From Candidatus Kapaibacterium sp. (GTDB lineage Bacteria > Bacteroidota > Ignavibacteria > Kapaibacteriales > WFXC01), in the NCBI GenBank assembly GCA_015490805.1, contig WFXC01000018.1, positions 1-64,000 of the forward strand: 64,000 nucleotides of DNA, read 5' to 3'. The position numbers and the translations under genes were made by a program. Positions 9,170-50,164 of the stretch are shown here, piece after piece. A model generated the notes under the pieces. The model was not told where the DNA came from. It was given only the letters and a program-made list of their open reading frames with translations, and did no database searches. Numbering within the stretch: position 1 is the first letter of the stretch; the number at the start of each line of letters is the position of its first letter.

Positions 9170-9346
9170 AGAAAGGATGATGTCGTGCGACTTTTCCCTG
9201 GTGAGATGTTTCCACACGGAGCGTAAGGTGTCCGGCTGGTTGAAAGGATTGCTTTTGCTGAAATAAAGATGGATCGCTGTCGGAGTCGTGGAAACTGGCG
9301 GTATGGTTGATGGAGGATGAAGCGGGAAGTGAAAAGGAGCGCAGCA

Positions 9347-11683
9347 ATGGTGAAGCGATTTTCAATGCAGATGTTCGGATGGATCGTTGCGCTGGGAATG
9401 ATGCCCGGATGGGGATGGGCGCAGTGGGAGAGTACGTGGGTTTCCGTACCACTGGAAACGTTGACAGGTAGTGTACTCTATGATGGCGCAGTCGCGGGAG
9501 ATACGATCATTCTGGTTGGTGGTGCCGGAGTGGTTCTGCGAGCGGGCGGTCCAATGCAGCAGTGGACGGTGCAGCAACTTGCGGATGCACCGACATTACG
9601 ATCAGTTACGGTGATCCCGCCTGAAACTGCCATTGCTATCAGTGAGGAAGGCGCAGCATATCGATCGACCGATGGCGGACAAACCTGGGAAGTGATTGGT
9701 TTCCAGTTTGGTGTTCCGCTCCGGAAAGTGCGGGCAGATGGAGAACGGGTTGCTGTGGCTGCTGCTTCAGGAAGTGTTTTTGTGTCAACAGATGGCGGAG
9801 ACACGTGGGTGCAGCAAGCATTGCCCTTTGCCACCACATTGCATAGCATAGCAGTGCGCCGTTCGCTGCTGGTCGTGGTTGGGGATTCAGCAGTGGTGGG
9901 CGTTTCTTCGGATAGTGGGCTAACCTGGCAGCGGCGGCGATTGGAGGATCGCGCAGACGCTCTTCGGGATGTTGCGATCATCGATGATACTACCATTGTG
10001 GTGGTGGGCGATAGCGGGATAACGGGGTACTCGACCGATGGAGGGAATACCTGGCAGTTGACTGCATTTCCAACGGCAGATAATCTGATTGCAGTGCGAT
10101 TTCCAAATGCTGGCGAGGGCTGGGCGTTAGCGCAATCTTCAGCAGATTCTGTTACCCTGTGGCGGCTTACCACCAGTAATTGGAACTGGGAGGTGATCAC
10201 AGATGCTATCACGGGGAATCCCGGCTGTAGCGCTGTTCGCTGGCACAGGCTCATTGCGTCCGGACAGCACTGGATCGTTGCGGGTGGGTGTGCAGAAAGT
10301 GCGGCGGTGGTCGTCGGACTGCCGCGGCAGGGGTGGCGCTGGGCTTTCTGGGGCCAACCGTCGAAGGCAACCGTCATTGTCGGAGGACAGGTGCGGCACT
10401 GCCGACAGGTGCGGCTGGTTGTCGGCGAACCGCAGCGACCGCGGGTGCTGGAATACGACGGTGAAACCGGAGCGTGGACGACTTTTGCCTCGCTGCCCGT
10501 TATCGATTTTGCGGGACAAACGCCGGAAGGGTGGTATTTCCAGGGGGCACGGGCGGGGAAAATGGTGATGAACGGTGCTTACGGTGTCATTCAGAGTGTG
10601 GATCCGCTGCCAGTGCTCTGGGTGTCCTCTGATACCGGGCGGAGCTGGCAGGTGCAATCTATCGGTACTTTGAAGATCAACGCCGTGTTTCCTTATGGCA
10701 CCAGCGGTTTTGGTGTCCTTGCCAGCGAGGATGGAGTAACGCCAACGGTGCTGCAGTACAGTGCCGATGGAGGAGCAACGTGGCAGGTGATGCTGGATGT
10801 GAGCGGGTCAGGGCAGCGGCTGGATGCAGCGCAGTTTCCAACTGAACAAATCGGCTGGGTGGCGGTTCATACGGGACAGCGGATGGAGCTGTGGAAAACC
10901 GAAAACCGCGGATCTACCTGGACACCGTACGTGCTGAATATTCTCTTTCACCACGCCGCTGCCGATACGATGCTGGATCAGCAGGTTTATGCGATGGTGG
11001 CGTATAGCCGCCTCCATCTGGATATGCTCCTTGGAGGATTGGTGGTGAAGGATGGGACATCGTTGGGATATACCGTTGGACTGTGGTCATCGACCGATGG
11101 CGGTAGTAGCTGGCAGCTTCGCTGGTGGATGGATCAGGTTGATCCGAGCTGGCAGTTGAGCAGTCGTCCACCAGTGGCAGAAATTGCCGGGCAGGATCGG
11201 CGCGTGAAGGCTGTGCTGGTCGAGTCGCCAGAAAACGGTCGGCGTTTGCTGTTTTCGGAAAATGGGCTGGCGTGGTCCGTCCATCCGTTTGCAACCAATG
11301 ATCCCCGGCGCTACCACCTGATTGATTTTCGCAATGGGTGCCTCTGTAGCGTTGCGAATGGGATTGCGGTAGGAAGAGAAACCGAAATGCTATTGATGCG
11401 GTTTCCCAATGTGTCGGCGGTTGAGCAGCCGGCGAAAGAAGATATGCCCACTGTGACGCTCTTTCCCCAGCCGGCTACCCGATGGGTAGCAGTGCGTTTG
11501 CCAGTTCGCTGGCAGCAACAGGTGCTGGCAATAGACATTTTCGACCTGTACGGCAGGCGACAGTGGCACTTGGATCAATTTGTCCCGCAGGTGCCAGTCC
11601 GTTCGCTTCCAGCAGGGACCTATCATCTCCGGCTGATCTTTCCAGACCGTACCGTCACACTGCCATTCTGGATTGCTCGCTGA
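9347..11683 (+). CDS. Secreted BNR/Ycf48-like beta-propeller protein with T9SS sorting domain
   Basis: This 778-residue exported protein starts with a signal peptide (residues 1-26, ending GWGWAQ). It contains at least seven BNR-type motifs: STDGGQTW, STDGGDTW, SSDSGLTW, STDGGNTW, SSDTGRSW, SADGGATW and STDGGSSW. These fit a beta-propeller of the sialidase/Ycf48 kind. The last 80 residues (LFPQPATRWVAVRLP, then LYGRRQWHL, then LPAGTYHLRL) form a type A T9SS C-terminal sorting domain, so the protein is probably cell-surface or secreted. The start at 9347 has AAGGAG upstream; an in-frame ATG at 9317 is less likely. No sialidase active-site set is recognised. Confidence 0.85.
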   Translation: MVKRFSMQMFGWIVALGMMPGWGWAQWESTWVSVPLETLTGSVLYDGAVAGDTIILVGGAGVVLRAGGPMQQWTVQQLADAPTLRSVTVIPPETAIAISEEGAAYRSTDGGQTWEVIGFQFGVPLRKVRADGERVAVAAASGSVFVSTDGGDTWVQQALPFATTLHSIAVRRSLLVVVGDSAVVGVSSDSGLTWQRRRLEDRADALRDVAIIDDTTIVVVGDSGITGYSTDGGNTWQLTAFPTADNLIAVRFPNAGEGWALAQSSADSVTLWRLTTSNWNWEVITDAITGNPGCSAVRWHRLIASGQHWIVAGGCAESAAVVVGLPRQGWRWAFWGQPSKATVIVGGQVRHCRQVRLVVGEPQRPRVLEYDGETGAWTTFASLPVIDFAGQTPEGWYFQGARAGKMVMNGAYGVIQSVDPLPVLWVSSDTGRSWQVQSIGTLKINAVFPYGTSGFGVLASEDGVTPTVLQYSADGGATWQVMLDVSGSGQRLDAAQFPTEQIGWVAVHTGQRMELWKTENRGSTWTPYVLNILFHHAAADTMLDQQVYAMVAYSRLHLDMLLGGLVVKDGTSLGYTVGLWSSTDGGSSWQLRWWMDQVDPSWQLSSRPPVAEIAGQDRRVKAVLVESPENGRRLLFSENGLAWSVHPFATNDPRRYHLIDFRNGCLCSVANGIAVGRETEMLLMRFPNVSAVEQPAKEDMPTVTLFPQPATRWVAVRLPVRWQQQVLAIDIFDLYGRRQWHLDQFVPQVPVRSLPAGTYHLRLIFPDRTVTLPFWIAR

Positions 11684-11746
11684 GTGGTGCCGGAGCGTTC
11701 CTCCAGGCAACTTTCGTCCGAAAGAGCAGGTTTTCACTGGCATACA

Positions 11747-12280
11747 CTGGGAGCGCCGACTTCAGTCGGCAAAGCTGCACACTGAAGTGTGCGCTCCCGG
11801 CGGACTGGGAGCGCCGGCTTTAGCCGGCAAAGAAACTGCACACAGAAGTGTGCGCTCCCAGTAGATGTACCCTAAAGCGTGTGCTCCTCGCGGACCGGGA
11901 GTGCCGACTTTAGTCGGCAAAGAGTTCCCCCTTTCTCTGGGAGAGGGATAGGGTGAGGGCAATGCACGCTGAAGCGTGCGCTCCCGGCGGACTGGGAGCG
12001 CCGGCTTTAGCCGACAAAGAAACTACACACTGAAGTGTGCACTCCCAGTTAGGCGGCCAGTTGGTTTGCGCCTATGGGTATGTAGGCGATCAACTGGTTG
12101 CGCCTGCTGGGAGCGCCGACTTTAGCCGGCAAAAGATTGAAGAATGCACACTGAAGTGTGCGCTCCCGGTGCGATGGTAGGGATGAGGAATGGTGCTTCG
12201 CCCGGCGGGCAAGCACGGGGAGTTATCCCGCGGATGGGAGATGAATTTGCAGGGGCAGGCTTGTAAGCCTGCCCTCTGTT
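11747..12280 (+). repeat. Dispersed repeat cluster 2 (five units, one split by an inserted repeat)
   Basis: Forward units lie at 11747-11800, 11805-11861, 11895-11986, 11992-12048 and 12107-12169. Outer arms GGGAGCGC and GCGCTCCC pair. The first hairpin alternates between GCCGGC/GCCGGC and GCCGAC/GTCGGC, and the second between GCACAC/GTGTGC and GCACGC/GCGTGC, so paired positions change together. The third unit is split at about 11923-11960 by a different C/G-rich repeat with arms around CCCCCTTTCTCTGGGAGAGG. Further repeats follow at 12172-12230 and a hairpin GGGCAGGCTT-GTA-AGCCTGCCC near 12253. The gap between flanking genes (11684-12326) holds no supported gene. Confidence 0.9.
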
Positions 12281-12326: not shown

Positions 12327-13439
12327 TTAGGATCGAACCTTTTTTATCTCTGACTGGAGACGCCTGCGGAACTTTGCTGCGGTGCAGGCAGTGATTCTGT
12401 ATTTGCGGGCGGTTGCTTCGGAAATAGGGGAACTGGCGGTGATGACAAAAGATCGAGATACGGGAATGTTCAGTCGCGAGCAGAGATCCTGGTACTTTGC
12501 TAAGTCGCGTGCCTCGATCCCGCCACTTTTTGCTTCAAAACAGAAAGCGGTGTCATTGAGCAGGAGGAAACAGTCAATTTCCCGCCGTTGTTGGGATTGT
12601 TGAGGTGAGTTGCTATCAAAAGTGACTTTCAAATTGCATGCCCATATAACAGAGGAGAAACTCAGCGAGCTGGTTGTCTCGAGAATGGTGTTGATGATGA
12701 AGAGTTCTAACCATTTACCATTGAAAAAGTGTCGCGCAGCAGTGTTGTCGGCAATTTTTAGTGAGAAATTGTAGCCGTTGCGGGATGCTATACGGTAACA
12801 GTGAAATTTGCTCAGCAAACCGGCTTTGCGAAGCTCATAGCATAACTGGTAGAACGAATTGAGCTTTTTGTTTGATTCTGCGTCGCCGACTTCAAGGTAA
12901 AAATCACAATCGGGATGCAAGTTGCTTTTTGAAAGTTGCCGTTTGGTATTGTCAAGGAAAGACTGAAAGTAAGGGTACAACCTCCCAAGCCGCTTGCTGA
13001 TGTTCAACAGCAGTGGATCTGGCAATGCAGTGTTTGCTTCTTCCAGTTCGATTCGTTGCGCCTTGAACCATTGAGCGAGCCGTTCCCTGGGACCTGAGGG
13101 AGTGGCCGTTTCCTCCCGCTTATTGTGATGCGGAAGGGATGGGGAAAGGACGATGTTTTGAGACGGTGGAGACTTCGCACCATCGGCGACCTGATCGCTG
13201 GAAGGCGAGGTATCTGCAGGTAGCCGATCTGTCTCAGCCGATGCTTGTTCGGCTCCTGCCTGTTTCGATCGCTGCAATGCTTCTTGCAACGTCACGATCA
13301 GTTTTTCCAGTACTGGAAGCAGTTCCAGCAAAGACTCCGTGTGCAGGATGAGCAGTTCCAGCTCCGTGGCTTTCTCAACTAATTGAGCAATGGGCGAGGC
13401 AAGAAGATCCAGCGGATCTTTGGGGAATCGTTTTGCCAT
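12327..13439 (-). CDS. Unknown protein with Card1/DUF1887-like PD-(D/E)XK nuclease domain (small partner)
   Basis: This 370-residue protein has no confident family. Residues 1-60 are leucine-rich and helical, 60-120 low-complexity, and 140-370 a conserved region. That region ends in a nuclease-type core: GKWLE (E245), REIDCFLLL (D289) and FCFEAKSG (E302, K304). The order is that of PD-(D/E)XK nucleases and resembles the nuclease half of Card1/Can2 (DUF1887), but no CARF domain is present. Residues 147-320 align by eye with residues 228-470 of the protein from 13676-15775, so the two are paralogous. It is preceded by the shared element at 13540. It could be a defence or DNA/RNA-processing nuclease; the function is unknown. 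Confidence 0.7.
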   Translation of the reverse strand: MAKRFPKDPLDLLASPIAQLVEKATELELLILHTESLLELLPVLEKLIVTLQEALQRSKQAGAEQASAETDRLPADTSPSSDQVADGAKSPPSQNIVLSPSLPHHNKREETATPSGPRERLAQWFKAQRIELEEANTALPDPLLLNISKRLGRLYPYFQSFLDNTKRQLSKSNLHPDCDFYLEVGDAESNKKLNSFYQLCYELRKAGLLSKFHCYRIASRNGYNFSLKIADNTAARHFFNGKWLELFIINTILETTSSLSFSSVIWACNLKVTFDSNSPQQSQQRREIDCFLLLNDTAFCFEAKSGGIEARDLAKYQDLCSRLNIPVSRSFVITASSPISEATARKYRITACTAAKFRRRLQSEIKKVRS

Positions 13440-13539
13440 TAAGTCTTCCTGTTTTTGTGGAACATCCGTTGTTTGTTTGCGTCATCGACGCCGCTCTAAA
13501 ACACGCAATCGGGACAAAAAGAAGGGTAACGGTGAGCAT

Positions 13540-13551
13540 TTTGAGAAGGTT
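13540..13551 (-). promoter_or_regulatory. Shared upstream element, copy A
   Basis: The plus strand reads TTTGAGAAGGTT, followed by CTT. It lies 101 bases upstream of the small nuclease gene. The same 12 bases occur upstream of the larger partner gene and of cas8. At the equivalent 37-base distance lies TGTTTTAG (minus strand 13503-13496), a poor match to the -7 consensus. The core contains the inverted repeat AGAA-GG-TTCT. Confidence 0.55.
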
Positions 13552-13675
13552 CTTAAATGTCGAAAAGTGGTTTCCCGGCGTGGGATTCGTAGGCAGGGCA
13601 GCGGGGTGATTGACACACCCGGTTTGGGCAGTAAGCGGCTAAGGCATTCAATTTGTGAACAGGATTGCCACTGTG

Positions 13676-15775
13676 TCACGTTTTCTTATCGATGCCACCA
13701 ATCAAATCATTGCCATCGGGCAGATCGTCGTTGCCAGTAGCATCATCGTTGCCCATCAGATCATCGATATCAGTGAAGTCATCGAGATAGTCATCCGTGC
13801 AGTCATCGATCCATTTCCTGTTGATATGCATTGTTGTGAGCTCTGCTATTTTGAAATACCCTCTTAGTACCATTGCGTCGATTGCCTGTTGGAGTAATGC
13901 TTTGAGTTCTTTCCTTTGTTCCTGATTCGTTTCCAGAAAGTCGCTGCTTGATACGTCGGACAACCCGGAGAGAATTTTGACAACCGGATGGGGAAGGCCC
14001 CCAGCGGAGTCGCGTTCCAGCATCATATCGGACATTGCTACCTTCAACTCGCTCACTAAGGGGTGTTCATGATAGAAGTCAAGGCTGTTTAAAGTTTTCA
14101 GGAACTGCTCAGGGAATACGGCTGGTGTACAGATCCGAAGGTGTGGTGATAAGCCAACCTTAGTAGCTTTGTATTCACTTTGGTGACTGAAGAAGGGCAT
14201 TTTTGCTTCCCATCCCTCCTTTTGTCCATAGAGCTCGGAGTTCCACTGCGGCAGTGATCGAAGGGAGGAGACAAGCGGGGCGGAGCGGAAGCTGGGGGAA
14301 ATAGTGAAACCATAGCAGGAAAGTGGGGGACCGAAGGGGTCCGCGTAGTCCCGCAGGTTGAAGAGGAAGAGCTGTTGACAGTAATTGTCCAGAAAGAGGC
14401 TGTTCGTATGTTGACCGGGAGTTTCGATCCAGAGCGGCTTGTCGTCGAAGATGAGGAAAAAGTCAATGGTATGAGTGCGCTGGAGGGAGGGACGAAGTGG
14501 ATCTGGATAGCCGATCCTTAGATTGCGTACCCAGGGGATGCGAGTAGTCGAGTGTTGAAATATTTCCAGCAACTTCAAGATGTCCTCCTCGTGTGCCCGG
14601 AGAGGGGCGGAGGTGATGGATTGCAGCGTTTCCAGTAGCTCTGGAAGATCTTTGTTGCGCATCCAGAGAATGAGGGTGGTGACCATAGAGAGGGGGTTGA
14701 GGAAAGCGAATTTTACTGCGTACAGTGCTGCTGCCTGGCTGAACAGTTTCATCCATTCTCCAGCGAGAAACAGCAGCGCTTCCGTGTCTGGATTGAGCTG
14801 TATCTGGAAAGTGAAGGGGTTGCGTTCCTGATAATTCCGAAGGAGGTTGGCGGTATGGGTCAGATAGTGCAGCAATTGTCGAGTTAACTGGAAGGCGTAG
14901 GCTTGATCAAAAGTTGCTTCTCCAGTATAATCCAGCTCGCGAAACCCGGTCAGTTGGAGCATGTGGTCCTGATCAAGGTGCGGAATAGGAGCAAGAGTGA
15001 ACGCAAAATGCTCCTGCCTTCGAGCAATAGCCTGCTCGGCGGCAGCGAGGAATCGCTGGAGATGTGGGTAAAATTTCCCGATAACCAGGCTGGCAGTAAT
15101 CAATCGATGGTCTGGGGGTTCAATGGTCCCTCCGAGGATCTGAAGGTTTCGTTCCTCAAGCCATTGTTGGAGATCTTCCCACGAGCTTTCCGGAAGTCCG
15201 AAAGATGTCCAGGTATGAAGGCGCTCCATGATTGTTTCTGGATCGTCGGTCGGTTGGGAAGGATCGGTAAGCCACTCGATAATCCACGAGACCCGATCTT
15301 TTTCTTCTTGAAGCTCTAAGAGTTTTGTGCGTACCGCTTCGAGCAATGCCGGGTTCTTGACCAGCCGTTCTCTCAGCAGCAAATTTTCTTCCTTGAGTTC
15401 CAGAAATCTTGTGCGGATCTTTTTATTTGCCAGAATCTCTTTCAGCAGATTTTTTGCCTGTAAAAGCGCTGCCACTCTTGGGCGTATTTCTTCGATGAGT
15501 TTCTTCTGTTGATAATCGGAAATAGATGACTTTCGGAGGCGTGTTTCTATGATCGCTTTTGAAAGCAGCAGTTCATCTGATACATCCGGCAGGTGGAGGG
15601 CTGTGAGCTTTTCTGCAAGCTGCGTAAAGAACCGGCGGAACGTTGTGGGAGAATGCAAATGCGGAGCGATGAGATTTTCCGTAAAGTAGGCGATGAGCTC
15701 AAGGATTTCATACTCAGGAAATGGTTCCAGAACACACGTGGGCGGCAACCACCGTAATGCCTCTGGGCCTAACAT
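13676..15775 (-). CDS. Unknown protein, inactive-looking paralogue of the small nuclease (large partner)
   Basis: This protein of about 699 residues is unrecognised. Residues 1-170 are helical with a charged coiled-coil section (about 85-165). Residues 228-470 match the neighbouring 370-residue protein: IGKFYPHLQRFL against LGRLYPYFQSFL, FLAGEWMKLF against FFNGKWLELF, and HTIDFFLIFDDKPLWIE against REIDCFLLLNDTAFCFE. The catalytic ExK is replaced by ETP (E451-T452-P453), so this copy probably does not cut. The tail (655-692) is very acidic with repeated GNDD. The ATG at 15775 is taken as start; a TTG at 15799 would add 8 residues. The two genes are tandem, 236 bases apart, and probably work as a pair. 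Confidence 0.7.
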   Translation of the reverse strand: MLGPEALRWLPPTCVLEPFPEYEILELIAYFTENLIAPHLHSPTTFRRFFTQLAEKLTALHLPDVSDELLLSKAIIETRLRKSSISDYQQKKLIEEIRPRVAALLQAKNLLKEILANKKIRTRFLELKEENLLLRERLVKNPALLEAVRTKLLELQEEKDRVSWIIEWLTDPSQPTDDPETIMERLHTWTSFGLPESSWEDLQQWLEERNLQILGGTIEPPDHRLITASLVIGKFYPHLQRFLAAAEQAIARRQEHFAFTLAPIPHLDQDHMLQLTGFRELDYTGEATFDQAYAFQLTRQLLHYLTHTANLLRNYQERNPFTFQIQLNPDTEALLFLAGEWMKLFSQAAALYAVKFAFLNPLSMVTTLILWMRNKDLPELLETLQSITSAPLRAHEEDILKLLEIFQHSTTRIPWVRNLRIGYPDPLRPSLQRTHTIDFFLIFDDKPLWIETPGQHTNSLFLDNYCQQLFLFNLRDYADPFGPPLSCYGFTISPSFRSAPLVSSLRSLPQWNSELYGQKEGWEAKMPFFSHQSEYKATKVGLSPHLRICTPAVFPEQFLKTLNSLDFYHEHPLVSELKVAMSDMMLERDSAGGLPHPVVKILSGLSDVSSSDFLETNQEQRKELKALLQQAIDAMVLRGYFKIAELTTMHINRKWIDDCTDDYLDDFTDIDDLMGNDDATGNDDLPDGNDLIGGIDKKT

Positions 15776-15860
15776 TACTCTTTTCAAGATTTTGTTCAAC
15801 TACCAATCGATTTCCGCAAATGTGACGATTCCAGCGTTTCTGGAGGGCAGCGGAAGAAGA

Positions 15861-15872
15861 TTTGAGAAGGTT
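15861..15872 (-). promoter_or_regulatory. Shared upstream element, copy B
   Basis: TTTGAGAAGGTT on the plus strand, 86 bases upstream of the large partner gene. A -7-like box CACATTTG (minus strand 15824-15817) lies exactly 37 bases away, the same distance as in the cas operon copy. At the -33 position there is CCT rather than TTG, as expected for an activator-dependent promoter. Confidence 0.65.
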
Positions 15873-15910
15873 TTCTTTTAGATCGGCAAAGGAGATGGGA
15901 AGGAGAACAA

Positions 15911-44509: not shown

Positions 44510-46783
44510 TCATACGAAAAACTGGTCGGTCGCTTCCGCAGCCTGCGGCAGGCTCAATCCGTGGTCGGTGGAGTAAGGCAGCGTTGTGACAATGCAGCGG
44601 AGCGATGGTTCATCGTAGAAAGCCGCCGGCGCGGTGAGCCAGTAAGCAGGAACTGGTACCAGCAGTTCGGGAAGGCGCCAGCCCTGCTTTTGCTCCTTCC
44701 ACGTGACTGCTTGATCCAGATAGCATTCGGGTAAGACATCGATGGAAATCATTCCCCGCCGGGTGCTGAAGAGTTTGCGAAGGTCCTTATCGGAGAGTTC
44801 GATTGTGTAACAGCCCAGGATTTGCTGGACTTCCTGAAGTGCCGCTTTCCCGCTGTCAAACTGCTCGTGCCACCGGGGCGTGTGGTGGATGATGTGTTCG
44901 TAGAGTTGTTCGGTGGCGATGGCGAGGTCCCGGTCGGTGGGGATGTCAGGGAGTTGCCGGAGTAACTCGGCACTGTAGGCTAAGATTTCTTTGCCATAAA
45001 TGTGCTGCGATCCTTTGTCCACTGTGGTGTAAATGTGCACCGGTGCTGCTGACTGTTCCCCACGCCGGTTGACCCGTCCCATTCGCTGTACCATCGCATC
45101 CAGCGGTGCCAGTTCTGTAAGGAGGATGTCGTAGGAAATATCCAGACTGACTTCCACAATTTGTGTCGTCACGGCGATCGTTCCGGGAGCAGGATGACTG
45201 ATTGCATCTTCTTTCCGGCGTCGATCCCTGAAGGCGAATCGGGAGTGGAGAAGCATCACCCGATCCCAGCCGTGTGTTTCCCGGAGTTGATCGTACAGGT
45301 TCTGTGCTGTTTGAACCGTGTTGGCAACGATGAGAACAGTTTTGTTCTGCCTGGCATATTCCATTGCCAGCGGTAATCCTTCTTCGATAGGGGAGCCTTC
45401 AAAGCGAAGTTGATGGCGAGACCGTTTCCACAGCGGGAATTCCGCTTCGATGAGCGTTCCAGAGGGGAATAGCTCCATCAAGGAAGTGGGCAGGGTTGCG
45501 CTGGCAAAAGCAACTTTCTTCGGGGGCTCCTGTTCAAAAGCGGCGGCTAAAAGTCCCAGCGTGTATGGTTCGTAAGCGTGGATTTCATCCAGAATCACGG
45601 TTGCTGAGCGTGCCAGCGTCCGGCGTTCCTCCCAGTGACGACCGTGTAGATGACCCAGTAAGTACTGGTCTAAGGTTGCAACGGTGATGGGTTTGGCAAA
45701 GACGGAGCCGAAAAGCTGTTTTTCCAGTGGCGGTTCTTCCTCTGATAGCAGGTGAATCAAGAAGTTCGAGCGTCCGTGGACTAAACTTACCGCTTCGTCC
45801 CCGTAGATTGCTTGCAGGCGGCGGTACATTGCATTGGCAGTTGCCTGCGTTGGGAGAAGGTAGAGAATGCGAGTGGCATTGCCTGCCCAGAGCAGCAGTG
45901 CTTCCGTTTTGCCGGTTCCCGTTGGCGCCCGAAGCCAGAGCGTATCAGTTGTCTGCTGCGCTGCCTGTTGCTGAAAGTTGCGAAGCGTGAACGATCGGGT
46001 GAAGTGTTCAATGTGCTGCCTGCCGTAGTGGAGGAATAATCCTGAAATCTCCAGGATACCTGCTGAAGCCAGCCAATCGGCAAGGTGGAGTACCGCTTTG
46101 ACAGCGGCAAACTCCATCGGTGGCAGCGATTGCAGCTTTTGCCGGACGGTAACATTGGCGAGATTGTTGTCCAGCAATTCCTTGAATGAAAGCTGTTGCA
46201 GAAGTTGCTGGACCTGAGCGATAAGCCGGGAAGGATCTGGTAGTCCCTGAACACCGTAATGTTTCAGGTATTCCCACAACGCTGCGATCAAGTTCTGAAG
46301 ATGTTCAGTCAGCGAGGGAGCCTGTTCGCAATCTTTGTACAGCGTTGGCTGGAGTGGCGAGTGGTGGCTCAGGACCGCAGCGCTGGCTAAAAGATCGTTG
46401 TGCAAATTCCATCCGTTTGCTTGATTCATCGATTGTTCCGCAATGAGCACAAAGGGGAAAGAAACGAGTGCGTGCGGAAAACTTTTCTTCGTTTTGCCGG
46501 TGATGTACGCCTGGAAATCCTCATTGGCTTTGCCAATGTCGTGCAGGGCACACGCCAGCAGAGCTTTGGCTCGTAGCCGGTCGGAAAGGTTGAGGCGGTC
46601 ACAGAGGTGTTTGCCCAGGGTGAGAACCTCGATCGAGTGCTGCCACAGGGAGACATCAGGTTTGGCTAAGATACGCAGCGCTGGCGCTGAGAGATATCGG
46701 GAGGCAAGAGCGTGTGCTGGTGCATTCTCTGGATGAGATCCCGTTGGCGGCGTTTCCGATGACTGTGGTGTCAATTGTACCAT
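44510..46783 (-). CDS. cas3: CRISPR-associated helicase-nuclease Cas3
   Basis: This protein of about 757 residues nicks and unwinds target DNA after Cascade binding. The N-terminal HD nuclease shows WQHS and CALHDIGKANEDF. The superfamily 2 helicase shows RAPTGTGKTEALLLWA, VILDEIHAYE, FASATLP and QRMGRVNRRG. The start is uncertain: TTG at 46795 overlaps the cas5 stop by four bases, while ATG at 46783 follows AAAGGGA. It is the last gene of the effector operon. Confidence 0.93.
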   Translation of the reverse strand: MVQLTPQSSETPPTGSHPENAPAHALASRYLSAPALRILAKPDVSLWQHSIEVLTLGKHLCDRLNLSDRLRAKALLACALHDIGKANEDFQAYITGKTKKSFPHALVSFPFVLIAEQSMNQANGWNLHNDLLASAAVLSHHSPLQPTLYKDCEQAPSLTEHLQNLIAALWEYLKHYGVQGLPDPSRLIAQVQQLLQQLSFKELLDNNLANVTVRQKLQSLPPMEFAAVKAVLHLADWLASAGILEISGLFLHYGRQHIEHFTRSFTLRNFQQQAAQQTTDTLWLRAPTGTGKTEALLLWAGNATRILYLLPTQATANAMYRRLQAIYGDEAVSLVHGRSNFLIHLLSEEEPPLEKQLFGSVFAKPITVATLDQYLLGHLHGRHWEERRTLARSATVILDEIHAYEPYTLGLLAAAFEQEPPKKVAFASATLPTSLMELFPSGTLIEAEFPLWKRSRHQLRFEGSPIEEGLPLAMEYARQNKTVLIVANTVQTAQNLYDQLRETHGWDRVMLLHSRFAFRDRRRKEDAISHPAPGTIAVTTQIVEVSLDISYDILLTELAPLDAMVQRMGRVNRRGEQSAAPVHIYTTVDKGSQHIYGKEILAYSAELLRQLPDIPTDRDLAIATEQLYEHIIHHTPRWHEQFDSGKAALQEVQQILGCYTIELSDKDLRKLFSTRRGMISIDVLPECYLDQAVTWKEQKQGWRLPELLVPVPAYWLTAPAAFYDEPSLRCIVTTLPYSTDHGLSLPQAAEATDQFFV

Positions 46784-46791
46784 TGTCCCTT

Positions 46792-47496
46792 TCAATTGAG
46801 CCAGGTGAAACTACGATTTTGCCATTGCAGTGCCGGCATATTTGCAATGTGAATTTTGTAGTGCAGCGGCAGAAAACTAAAGGGTTGCAGATGCTCCGGA
46901 TTGCGGTAGTTCTTCTTGTCGATAGAGAATCGTTTCGGCAGCACTTCTACCGAAGGCGCTTCCATCTGAATTCCCGGTTCAAGGATAGGGCGGAAAGATT
47001 GCTGGCGGAAATCTCCCGGAATAATAGTGCCGAAGAAAACCGGATCACCGGGAGCAACGATTTGAAGTTGTAAAGAATCGATGAGGAGCAACTCATCTTC
47101 GCGCCCAAGGGAAAGCGGATAGGCAGGGTCCTGAAAAGCGCGATACAGTTGCGCTAACAGGGATTCAGGACCGCCGTAGAACAGGGTGTACTGGACAAAG
47201 AACAACAGTTCCCGAAGGTATGGAGAACGCAGCATTTTGTTGCTCTTGATCTTGAGCAGCGTCCATAAATCGCGTGCTCTGCCCGGCTCATTATGGATCC
47301 AGACAGCGGTGCGCAGGGAACGCAAAGGGGAATCCGGTGCCCAGAGCTGGAAATCACTCAGTCCCAGCGCAGCGGCTGCAATGCCGATCAATGTTGTGGG
47401 TGGCGGCAGCAGCAGCGAGCGCTGGTAGTTGTGATCCAGCGGGCGCCGGAAGGAGGCAACCGGTGCCCGCACATCGACGATTAAAACAGATTCCAT
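46792..47496 (-). CDS. cas5: CRISPR-associated protein Cas5
   Basis: This 234-residue RAMP-fold subunit of Cascade holds the 5' handle of the crRNA. The family opening VDVRAPVASFRRP, then LLPPPTTLIGIAAAALG, is typical of Cas5 of the I-B kind, here closest in style to Cas5t. It overlaps the end of cas7 by 16 bases and touches the start of cas3, which indicates one tightly coupled transcript. Confidence 0.9.
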   Translation of the reverse strand: MESVLIVDVRAPVASFRRPLDHNYQRSLLLPPPTTLIGIAAAALGLSDFQLWAPDSPLRSLRTAVWIHNEPGRARDLWTLLKIKSNKMLRSPYLRELLFFVQYTLFYGGPESLLAQLYRAFQDPAYPLSLGREDELLLIDSLQLQIVAPGDPVFFGTIIPGDFRQQSFRPILEPGIQMEAPSVEVLPKRFSIDKKNYRNPEHLQPFSFLPLHYKIHIANMPALQWQNRSFTWLN

Positions 47497-48404
47497 CCCG
47501 TTTGCAGGTCTTGTTTCGCTGCTTCAATTGCTTCGTGGACCGTGTAGATGCTTCCGTAGCGGGAAAGCTGCTCTCGAATTTCTCCTTCGTTGGCGAAGAT
47601 GCCGGGATCAATGCCGAAAATTGTGGTGGTTCGGTACGATTGGAACTTCTCCAGCGCATTGTGAAGCGGTGCAAGATCCAGCCAGAACTGTCCGGAATCG
47701 TGCTGCGCCGATAGGGCTTCCAGAAAGACCGGGTGTTTGACCGTAAGGCGGCTATAAGCAAAGAATTTCGGAGAAAGATCGCTGAGGATTCGCGCCGTCC
47801 GTCCACCGCCCCACAGGAGTTTCAGGGCTTCTAAAAGATCGGCAACCCGCTGCTTGCGCTGCGCTGGGTCTAACTGCTGGTCCTGATTCTCTTTGTGTTC
47901 CAGTTTTGGGAACACCCCAACGCGATCCAGTTCCACCAGAATGGTGCCCTTGAAAAGGTTGCTGTAGATCTCGGTCTCGAACATATTGCCACCAGCTTCC
48001 ATTTTCTGCCCAAATTTCTCAAAAGAGCGTGTCCCCAGATCCCGATCGCCGTGGAAGGGGAAAAGTCCAACAGCAGCAGAGACGCGGACGGGAGAAGTGC
48101 GGCGATTCCCGCCGGAAGGATCCAGGTAGCCGAAGAGATCTTCATCCACGAACTCCCACGGACGCACCGGTGGCGTCACTTCCTGCCCGCTGACTTCAGC
48201 AAAGGGTTCGGAAAGCTGGTAGCCCAGCTCTTCCAGTCGATCCCGGAGCATCCGACGCAACGCCTGTCCGGAGATGTAAGGAAGGGTTGTGCCGTCCGGC
48301 AGCGTCACTTTTTTGGCGACCATCACGTTTCCTTCCGTGTGGGCAGCATTGACGTTGCCGGCAGAGACTTTTGTTAAGTACCCGATTGCGATTGCTTTTC
48401 CCAT
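47481..48404 (-). CDS. cas7: CRISPR-associated protein Cas7 (Cst2/DevR family)
   Basis: This 307-residue protein forms the backbone of Cascade along the crRNA. It starts KAIAIGYLTKVSAGNVNAAHTEGN, contains LPYISGQALRRMLRDRLEE (the Cas7 G-Q-x-x-R-x-x-x-R type helix), then DEDLFGYLDP and RTSPVRVSAAVGLFPF, as in Cst2/DevR proteins. It begins 3 bases after the cas8 stop. Confidence 0.9.
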   Translation of the reverse strand: MGKAIAIGYLTKVSAGNVNAAHTEGNVMVAKKVTLPDGTTLPYISGQALRRMLRDRLEELGYQLSEPFAEVSGQEVTPPVRPWEFVDEDLFGYLDPSGGNRRTSPVRVSAAVGLFPFHGDRDLGTRSFEKFGQKMEAGGNMFETEIYSNLFKGTILVELDRVGVFPKLEHKENQDQQLDPAQRKQRVADLLEALKLLWGGGRTARILSDLSPKFFAYSRLTVKHPVFLEALSAQHDSGQFWLDLAPLHNALEKFQSYRTTTIFGIDPGIFANEGEIREQLSRYGSIYTVHEAIEAAKQDLQTGWNLF

Positions 48405-48407
48405 TGC

Positions 48408-49925
48408 TTACTCCTCCGTTGTTGGTTGTTTTTCACCCTTGTATAGAAAGGCGTTCATTGCGTAGATTGAAAGCAGGGTCTTGATCCGGATCCACGGGAC
48501 GTTGTCAATCCGCTGCGAGCGATCCAGATTCAACAGCGCTTCGGGAATGGTAATGTTCAATCGAAACTGGATGTCGTTGAGCACCTGCAAAAATGTTTCA
48601 GGATTTTTGGCATTCCGCAAAGCGTAGAGAATGCCCATTTCGCTGTGCTCTGCAGCCGCTCTGCCCAAGGAATGACCAAAACCTGCCAGGATTTTTTGAA
48701 GTTGCTCGCTCATCTTGAAGATCTCCTTTATGTAGAAACTGAACACGTCGGTTGTCTTCGGTGCTAAGGGTTTGGGGGAGGTTTCTTTGGCGCGAATGTC
48801 AAAGAGAAATTCTTCCACAAAGGGGAGTGGATCATTGAACTCCAGAATTGCCCAGGCAATTTTATCGCGCCAGATGGTTTCCTGTTTGCCCTGATATACT
48901 GCTTTGAATTGACTGAAAACCCAGCGGAGCGTCCGTGCTGGCGTTTGGGGATCAAATTGCTGAACAATGCGCAGAAATCCCCGGTACAGGTGGTAGAGAA
49001 TGTGGAGTTTGGTGATTTCCTGGAGCTTTTGCATCTGGAAAGCCTGACCCGGCTTGCCGCTGACTGCATAGAGCGTCATTGGGCGCGGAGCGGTAGGATG
49101 ATCTTCGAGAGTGACCCCCAGAATTGCTGCCAGTAGCTGTTGTCCTTCCGGTGAAAGATGGTCGGAGTCGCGAACGTGGTAGAACAGCTCCAGCAGCAAC
49201 CCCCATAGCGTTTCGTGCGGATAGGGCCCGGCAAAGGCGACGGGGACGTTCCCTCCGCTCTGCCCCTGAAGGCGAAGGGGGCTCAGAACGTTTTGATGAA
49301 AGGCAGCCAGCGTTTCCAGATCGGTGTGGAACAGGAAAAAGTGGAGCGCTTCCCGACCAACTGAGCGCCACAACAGTCCCAGCAGTGCTGCCAGACCTGC
49401 TAAGGCGCAACGAGGGCACAATTTGAAACTGCGCCACGAACTGCGCTTGCCTTTGGCACTGTGGCTGTGGCCTAAGGGGTAGAAATTGCTGAATTTATCC
49501 GGGGCGATCAGAAAAGGGAACATCCACATTTTGGCGTCTGTCGTGGGTGCAAGCTGCCCACACAGATCGCACGGTTCCACCCGCGAGCGGAGTTTGAGAT
49601 CCAGCTCAAAGACTGGCGGCTGCGTGGGATATGCTTTGCCGTCGACCTTGACCTTCTTCCCTGGTTTTCCCGCAACGCTGATGAAGGTATTTGCCGGAAA
49701 AATCCAGTTGACTTTGTCGTATTCCTCCAGTTGCCGGGTCTCAGGATTGTAGTATGTCCCTTTCTTGCCCGTGGGAGCAACTAATTTCCTGACTAAGGTT
49801 TGCAGGACGTGGGATACTGGCAATGTACCGGTGCCGAACAACTGGTGCAGTACGACGATACCGTTGTCGATCCAGAAGTTCCCCGTTGGATTTTGCAGGT
49901 CGATATGGATGTTAATTTGCTTCAT
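48408..49925 (-). CDS. cas8: CRISPR-associated large subunit Cas8 (Cst1-like)
   Basis: This 505-residue protein is the first gene of the effector operon. Large subunits recognise the PAM and recruit Cas3. Two cysteine pairs, C119-x2-C122 and C170-x2-C173, form a probable zinc ribbon, as in Cst1/Cas8 of the former Tneap group. The rest of the sequence is poorly conserved. Its position in front of Cst2-type cas7, cas5 and cas3 supports a subtype I-B assignment. The leader is about 20 bases and lacks a Shine-Dalgarno sequence. Confidence 0.78.
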   Translation of the reverse strand: MKQINIHIDLQNPTGNFWIDNGIVVLHQLFGTGTLPVSHVLQTLVRKLVAPTGKKGTYYNPETRQLEEYDKVNWIFPANTFISVAGKPGKKVKVDGKAYPTQPPVFELDLKLRSRVEPCDLCGQLAPTTDAKMWMFPFLIAPDKFSNFYPLGHSHSAKGKRSSWRSFKLCPRCALAGLAALLGLLWRSVGREALHFFLFHTDLETLAAFHQNVLSPLRLQGQSGGNVPVAFAGPYPHETLWGLLLELFYHVRDSDHLSPEGQQLLAAILGVTLEDHPTAPRPMTLYAVSGKPGQAFQMQKLQEITKLHILYHLYRGFLRIVQQFDPQTPARTLRWVFSQFKAVYQGKQETIWRDKIAWAILEFNDPLPFVEEFLFDIRAKETSPKPLAPKTTDVFSFYIKEIFKMSEQLQKILAGFGHSLGRAAAEHSEMGILYALRNAKNPETFLQVLNDIQFRLNITIPEALLNLDRSQRIDNVPWIRIKTLLSIYAMNAFLYKGEKQPTTEE

Positions 49926-49952: not shown

Positions 49953-50008
49953 CAAAACTACGAAAACTCTGGTAGTTGAAGTGGTAGAAGCAAGAATTTG
50001 AGAAGGTT
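49953..50008 (-). promoter_or_regulatory. Predicted cas operon promoter with shared upstream element, copy C
   Basis: On the minus strand the -7 box TAGTTTTG occupies 49960-49953. TTTGAGAAGGTT (plus strand 49997-50008) begins exactly 37 bases from it, the distance also seen at copy B. The -33 position reads ACT instead of TTG. This fits a promoter that needs an activator bound at roughly -50 to -60. No CRISPR repeats are present in the gap to uppP (49926-50232). Confidence 0.65.
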
Positions 50009-50164
50009 CTTTTTGGAGAATCGATTCATAGCGCTTCGACTGTGTGGTCCCGGTGCGTTGATCGCTGAAGGTGCGATCCAAATGGGAGCTGAAGTTAGCC
50101 GTCACAAAGCAGTTGCGTTGCTAAAGTGAGACGTTTGCGGATAAGCTATCCGAACACTGGATCG

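Follow-up and report, generated by a model that had tools for sequence, protein, structure and literature searches.

The 64,000-nucleotide stretch analysed here (the window; positions 1 to 64,000 of contig WFXC01000018.1 of Candidatus Kapaibacterium sp.) carries two minus-strand genes, an upstream gene L and a downstream gene A, whose products share a nuclease-type core. The reading we lean towards is that A, together with its relatives B and C in sister genomes, encodes CARF-less Can2-type accessory nucleases of a CRISPR regulon, and that L is a dead paralogue that has been kept and is a probable partner of the active copies. Within this reading we infer the nuclease activity, an activator rather than a repressor, the heteromer, the defence role, the substrate and the mode of activation. 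The A/B/C/L family is carried by only three genomes, namely the 2.67-Mb host of the window (G000) and the two sister genomes of the genus, G001 and G002.

The product of gene A keeps the active-site residues E245, E287, D289, E302 and K304. A, B and C all contain GxWLE, E-I-D and F-E-A-K motifs, with E-x-D and E-x-K invariant. Residues 208–358 of A match the PADLOC CARF4_PDDEXK models (E 1.8e-9), and the nuclease halves of A, B and C match the PADLOC CARF_PDDEXK and Csx1 models. The match of A to Pfam Card1_endonuc (PF09002; E 0.0011, 19 bits) stays below the gathering cut-off of 26.4, and neither A nor L rises above any curated family cut-off. In the AF2 model of A, a well-folded core starts at residue 121 (predicted local distance difference test, pLDDT, mostly ~90), after a helix at residues 9–68 and disorder at residues 66–112. 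The best Protein Data Bank (PDB) matches of this model in Foldseek are VC1899 (1xmx, E 3e-12) and Cdn1 (E 1e-10), with Can2 (8bao, 8q4x) matched at E 1e-7 to 1e-5; among viral proteins, Foldseek returned nothing beyond generic PD-(D/E)XK matches.

No CARF domain was found in A: the AF2 model gives helix and disorder before residue 113, hhalign against seven full-length CARF-Card1 proteins aligns the nuclease domain alone (E 4e-6), and a TGGTK-type motif is absent. Full-length PF09002-type proteins from other genomes have a CARF-type N-terminus. The region of A before the nuclease gave weak Foldseek matches to Alba-fold proteins, which were set aside because the published Can2 nuclease domain (residues 166–366; PMC7969007) spans most of this region and the PADLOC Card1 model covers B from residue 134. 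Judged by sequence and model, A is a Can2/Card1-type protein without CARF, with putative nuclease activity. It stands outside Can2/Card1 as defined, having no CARF and scoring under the Pfam cut-off, but very probably shares common descent with that family. Since CARF is missing, activation of A by cyclic tetra- or hexa-adenylate (cA4 or cA6) is unlikely.

A and L are homologous, as shown by BLASTP (E = 3e-9), by alignment of the cores (score 106, where shuffled sequences average 32 with a standard deviation of 4.7 and a maximum of 54), and by profile-profile comparison of L with the A/B/C copies, L being left out of the profile (E = 2e-25). The nearest copy to L is C (E 1e-45). Direct comparison of the L profile with CARF-Card1 proteins gave no match, and L is tied to the Can2/Card1 family solely via A, B and C. 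The L reading frame starts with ATG at 15775, and an alternative in-frame TTG at 15799 would extend it to 707 aa. Three of the five active-site residues are lost in L (WLE to WMK, EID to TID, ExK to ETP). In the 707-aa numbering, K351 replaces the Glu of WLE, T444 replaces the Glu of E-x-D and P461 replaces the Lys of E-x-K; the identical three changes are found in G002. In Can2 enzymes, activity is abolished by E276A/D278A in one variant and by E302A/K304A in another (PMC7969007); L is therefore predicted to be a catalytically dead paralogue. L is acidic (98 D+E, 73 K+R), whereas B and C are basic. The C-terminal tail of L (window 13676–13820, minus strand) is Asp-rich, with 16 D/E among the last 48 residues, and partly resembles a Ca-binding GNDD repeat.

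An earlier account made from the letters alone (the sequence-only reading) had located both open reading frames (ORFs) correctly and called the proteins homologous through three shared blocks, all of which are real. Its assignment of the shared domain to the PD-(D/E)XK fold is borne out by Foldseek of the A model and by PADLOC, and its proposal of Card1/Can2 kinship without a CARF agrees with Foldseek, PADLOC, hhalign and the motif check. It was also right that A retains D289, E302 and K304 and that ExK has become ETP in L; the two further losses in L, GxWLE to GEWMK and EID to TID, had been overlooked.

A and L are not really a pair. The sister genomes have an array of four genes in the order C-B-L-A, in which three nucleases are intact and one copy is dead. 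Along the direction of transcription, the G002 locus comprises C (398 aa), B (392 aa), L (709 aa) and A (371 aa), and that of G001 comprises C, B and the start of L, followed by the contig end. A, B and C share ~30% identity over the core. The tandem pair proposed earlier holds insofar as both genes co-occur in a sister genome, yet with four genes there the pair is not obligate. Alignment of G000 with the G002 locus (L019) runs to window 15874 (L019:5882) and resumes at window 15888 (L019:8357). Because both ends carry TTGAGAAGGTT, a simple account is that B and C were lost from G000 by deletion between short direct repeats; the repeat is itself part of the promoter palindrome described below. 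Searches of phages, plasmids, viral contigs, 84,980 species genomes and 396 phylum genomes found no homologue of A beyond the genus, apart from a single ordinary Card1 protein that does carry a CARF (G380). Gene B (L019:5887–7065, minus strand; L020:12335–13507, plus strand) encodes a run of 13–15 lysines ahead of the nuclease domain.

The ratio of nonsynonymous to synonymous substitution (omega) of L is 0.32 overall (95% 0.24–0.44), 0.14 for core residues 196–345 (95% 0.06–0.30) and 0.29 for the pseudonuclease (95% 0.13–0.61), and that of the A nuclease domain is 0.41 (95% 0.24–0.68). These values show that L is under purifying selection and is not decaying junk. They bear on the idea that the locus is a relic, an old Can2 locus in which the CARF was lost, the copies multiplied and erosion is under way, L and the B/C deletion being stages of decay. 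The deletion in G000, the lost active-site residues and damaged promoter palindrome of L, and the omega of A and L (0.32–0.34), above the 0.01–0.16 of the more tightly constrained flanking genes, would all suit such erosion. However, every ORF is intact apart from a frameshift in C of G001, possibly an assembly error, E-x-D and E-x-K are invariant across A, B and C, and for both the L core and the A nuclease domain omega lies significantly under 1, so that we consider decay quite improbable. Between gene A of the window (12327–13439) and L019:2318–3433, synonymous divergence (dS) is ~0.05–0.2 in codons 1–150 and 0.35–0.75 in codons 151–351, with flanks at ~0.23. A is mosaic between species, as if its nuclease half had been replaced by a divergent allele.

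The link to CRISPR comes from the promoters. A palindrome, TTGAGAA-NN-TTCTCAA, lies upstream of C, L and A. Genome-wide, perfect or one-mismatch palindromes were found before cmr1 of a complete type III-B operon, before a csx1 (CARF-HEPN)-cas6 operon, before a CARF gene of the NE0113 ring-nuclease family, before genes for a 1587-aa ATPase and a BNR/Ycf48-like protein, and between a CRISPR array and cas4-cas1; two more are intragenic or without a nearby gene start. The palindrome or a near copy stands 62–101 nt before cmr1, csx1, the CARF/NE0113 gene, the ATPase gene, A, L and C, and its place mostly agrees among the three species. Both sister genomes have it at cmr1, csx1, the NE0113 gene, the ATPase gene and the BNR gene, usually at a nearly equal distance from the start codon. 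Of the exact form, TTGAGAASSTTCTCAA, the three genomes have 4, 5 and 5 copies, and 116 other genomes of the order have a single copy between them, inside a histidine-kinase-like gene. The exact palindrome is essentially confined to this genus. As a single Cas1 locus and a single RAMP operon are present in G000, the associations with CRISPR genes were not picked from many. Two-mismatch near-palindromes elsewhere in the genome look chance-like or are intragenic, and were left out of the counts.

The Bacteroidota -7 box has the consensus TAnnTTTG. A full or partial -7 box lies 37 ± 1 nt past the palindrome in seven of seven genes (TATCTTTG, TATTTTTG, TAAAATTG, CACATTTG, TACCTTTT, GTTTTTTG and TGTTTTAG). 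No other offset is comparable, and none of 5000 rotations of the sequences does as well, a figure that is somewhat generous because the spacing was first spotted by eye on these same sequences. The BNR gene, which is independent of that choice, has TAAATCTG at 37. A composite-motif scan of 210 kb gave a site at window 49998 with TAGTTTTG at 37, which is the promoter of cas8b and had not been used in defining the motif; the reversed-sequence control gave four weak matches. The complete type I-B operon behind this promoter is recognised by profiles for Cas8b (E 2.9e-111), Cas7/Cst2 (1.6e-70), Cas3 (1.6e-67) and Cas5 (4.6e-14). The composite promoter, palindrome plus -7 box at 37 ± 1, is shared by A, L, C, cmr1, csx1, the CARF/NE0113 gene and cas8b. 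Co-regulation of A, L and C with the CRISPR-Cas operons is well supported by these promoter sequences, and we found no description of the arrangement in the literature. The suggestion in the sequence-only reading that the locus belongs to a defence system gains a link to defence through this common promoter, although not as a two-gene system.

Coordinates of the main features in the window.
Feature	Position	Strand	Description	Basis
Gene A	12327..13439	-	370 aa; CARF-less Can2/Card1-type nuclease, predicted active	PADLOC, Pfam, AF2 model
A residues 9-68	13236..13415	-	Predicted long N-terminal helix, possible coiled coil, in the place of the CARF of Card1	AF2, low confidence
A residues 155-370	12330..12977	-	Can2-type nuclease domain; conserved E245, E287, D289, E302, K304	pLDDT mostly ~90, motifs, hhalign
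A candidate -7 box	13496..13503	-	TGTTTTAG, 4/6, 37 nt past palindrome	
A palindrome	13541..13556	-	TTAAGAACCTTCTCAA, 1 mismatch	
Gene L	13676..15775	-	699 aa; helical N-terminus, pseudonuclease core, unique C-terminus with Asp-rich tail	
L residues 346-480	14360..14764	-	Pseudonuclease (GEWMK, HTIDFF, IETP), ~55 aa insertion	Profile comparison, alignment; omega 0.29
L candidate -7 box	15817..15824	-	CACATTTG, 5/6, offset 37	
L palindrome	15862..15877	-	Proximal arm alone intact in G000: AAGAAAACCTTCTCAA	
Deletion junction	15874..15888		~2.5 kb with B and C missing; ends at two copies of TTGAGAAGGTT	
Type I-B operon	44510..49925	-	cas8b 48408-49925, cas7 47481-48404, cas5 46792-47496, cas3 44510-46795	
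cas8b -7 box	49953-49960	-	TAGTTTTG, offset 37	
cas8b palindrome	49998..50013	-	Degenerate distal arm, AAAAGAACCTTCTCAA	Composite scan

Some members of the putative regulon are of interest in themselves. The 1587-aa protein (L040:2037–6800, minus strand, G000 contig 2) has a P-loop-type N-terminus and a perfect palindrome in all three species. It has no Pfam, NCBIfam or PDB match and a weak PADLOC match to LmuB (E 4e-5), and is a candidate for an unrecognised defence gene. The CARF gene of the NE0113 family (L044:2994–4390, plus strand, G000 contig 37) is followed directly by an HD-domain ORF of 99 aa that looks like the beginning of Cas10, with no other RAMP genes nearby; the HD ORF may be an assembly effect. 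The BNR/Ycf48-like gene (L042:15269–16438, minus strand) has a perfect palindrome in all three species, and a second BNR/Ycf48-like gene (window 9317–11683, plus strand) adjoins gene A. Between this second gene and A, at window 11745–12170, a palindromic repeat of dispersed type (GGGAGCGCCGGCTTTAGCCGGC ... CACTGAAGTGTGCGCTCCC) is present in copies; it is MITE- or REP-like (miniature inverted-repeat transposable element or repetitive extragenic palindrome) and is also found at other loci of the genus (L019:12456–12571, L020:6783–6942).

The presence of the BNR/Ycf48-like gene and of an ATPase gene without assigned function in the regulon, together with the lack of an adjoining cas gene, leaves room for the array to be a lineage-specific set of non-immune nucleases, acting in repair, competition or plasmid control, that shares a stress regulator with the CRISPR operons by chance. 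Most recognised members of the regulon are nevertheless CRISPR genes, and the kin of the array in fold and sequence are CRISPR effectors, which makes this the least probable of the explanations considered.

A mechanism can be proposed for A, B and C as accessory nucleases of the CRISPR regulon. They would derive from a Can2/Card1-type effector that shed its cyclic-oligoadenylate-sensing CARF, and would be expressed alongside the CRISPR-Cas operons from a common promoter type. The palindrome is centred ~58 nt upstream of the presumed transcription start, a position that would suit an activator. The array would be raised with the CRISPR operons, after which partner proteins or the substrate might decide its activity. 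It is plausible that CARF proteins of G000 signal by cyclic oligoadenylate, since its Cas10 keeps GGDD and its Csx1 keeps a HEPN motif, but A, B and C have no CARF to sense it. L would most likely pair with the active copies via the shared core and the N-terminal helices. It might then supply part of the nucleic-acid cleft like the dead nuclease-like domain of Can1, with the tasks of the two Can1 halves divided here between two genes. L could just as well be a brake that holds the nuclease in check, a role worth considering because of its acidic tail.

A related possibility is that A, B and C act as toxic nucleases in their own right, neutralised by the acid-tailed L until infection removes it, with the common promoter just raising all of them under stress. 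The acidity and Asp-rich tail of L beside basic B and C, the retention of one dead copy beside one to three active ones, and the purifying selection on L would be expected of such a guard. However, at double the nuclease's size L does not resemble a usual antitoxin, and because it is under a promoter element of its own, stoichiometry is not enforced by an operon. B and C were lost while L stayed, which argues against one-to-one pairing, and the homology of the L core to the nuclease fits a partner subunit at least equally well. We regard a toxin and its guard as unlikely.

Several points weigh against placing the array in the CRISPR regulon with L as partner. No cas gene adjoins it, the nearest cas operon is ~30 kb off, and the link is the common promoter, in which the A and L elements are weaker than those of cmr1 or the ATPase gene; one perfect palindrome precedes the BNR/Ycf48-like gene, which is not recognised as defence. 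The near-palindrome between the CRISPR array and cas4-cas1 (L043:1410, G000 contig 8; L069:796, G001) is without a -7 box at 37 and, as the spacing is missing, may not belong to the regulon. The by-eye origin of the spacing counts here too. The contact between A and L, which the sequence-only reading proposed with L as scaffold or sensor, is presumed, and AF2 models L by itself poorly (pLDDT 48.7). A wider claim, that one regulator drives type I-B, type III-B and accessory modules through a fixed-distance palindrome and that a heteromer with the dead paralogue replaces CARF dimerisation in these CARF-less Can2 nucleases, is tentative and rather doubtful.

Can2-type nucleases are understood as CARF-restrained enzymes turned on by a cyclic nucleotide. 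If the preferred reading is true, this family has kept the nuclease, dropped the sensor, added a dead paralogue and come to share a promoter with the whole CRISPR complement, which would show that transcription can take over the control of such effectors. The promoter element ties genes of type I-B, type III-B and accessory modules together as a single regulon of the genus, and offers a handle for finding the regulator and unrecognised members such as the 1587-aa ATPase.

With Can2/Card1 proteins (DUF1887, PF09002; VC1899, SthCan2, TsCard1, Cdn1) the present proteins share the PD-(D/E)XK domain with GxWLE, E-x-D and E-x-K, the fold as judged by Foldseek, and a host genome with a cyclase-competent type III-B system (Cas10 GGDD). 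They differ in that a predicted helix and disorder replace the CARF, the sequence falls under the Pfam cut-off, and the copies are in tandem, one of them dead, with no cas gene alongside. CoCoNuTs (PMC11090510) likewise combine coiled coils with nucleases and have a predicted tie to CARF signalling, but are McrBC-type and built round an McrB-like GTPase; no McrB-like gene was seen among the neighbouring ORFs, and membership was dropped. CARF-HTH (helix-turn-helix) regulators such as Csa3 (PMC8844856) offer the idea of a regulon linking several CRISPR modules, whereas the regulator here is only presumed from the palindrome. The earlier statement that no described system has this layout is fair for the layout itself, yet Can1 is a close precedent for active and dead copies of one nuclease domain. 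Can1, whose origin lies in a Can2-like gene that was duplicated and fused, has a dead nuclease-like half beside an active half, the basic residues of the dead half being needed for DNA cleavage (PMC6981274, PMC7969007). Unlike the separate CARF-less genes described here, Can1 is one polypeptide with a CARF on each half and binds cA4 (PMC6981274).

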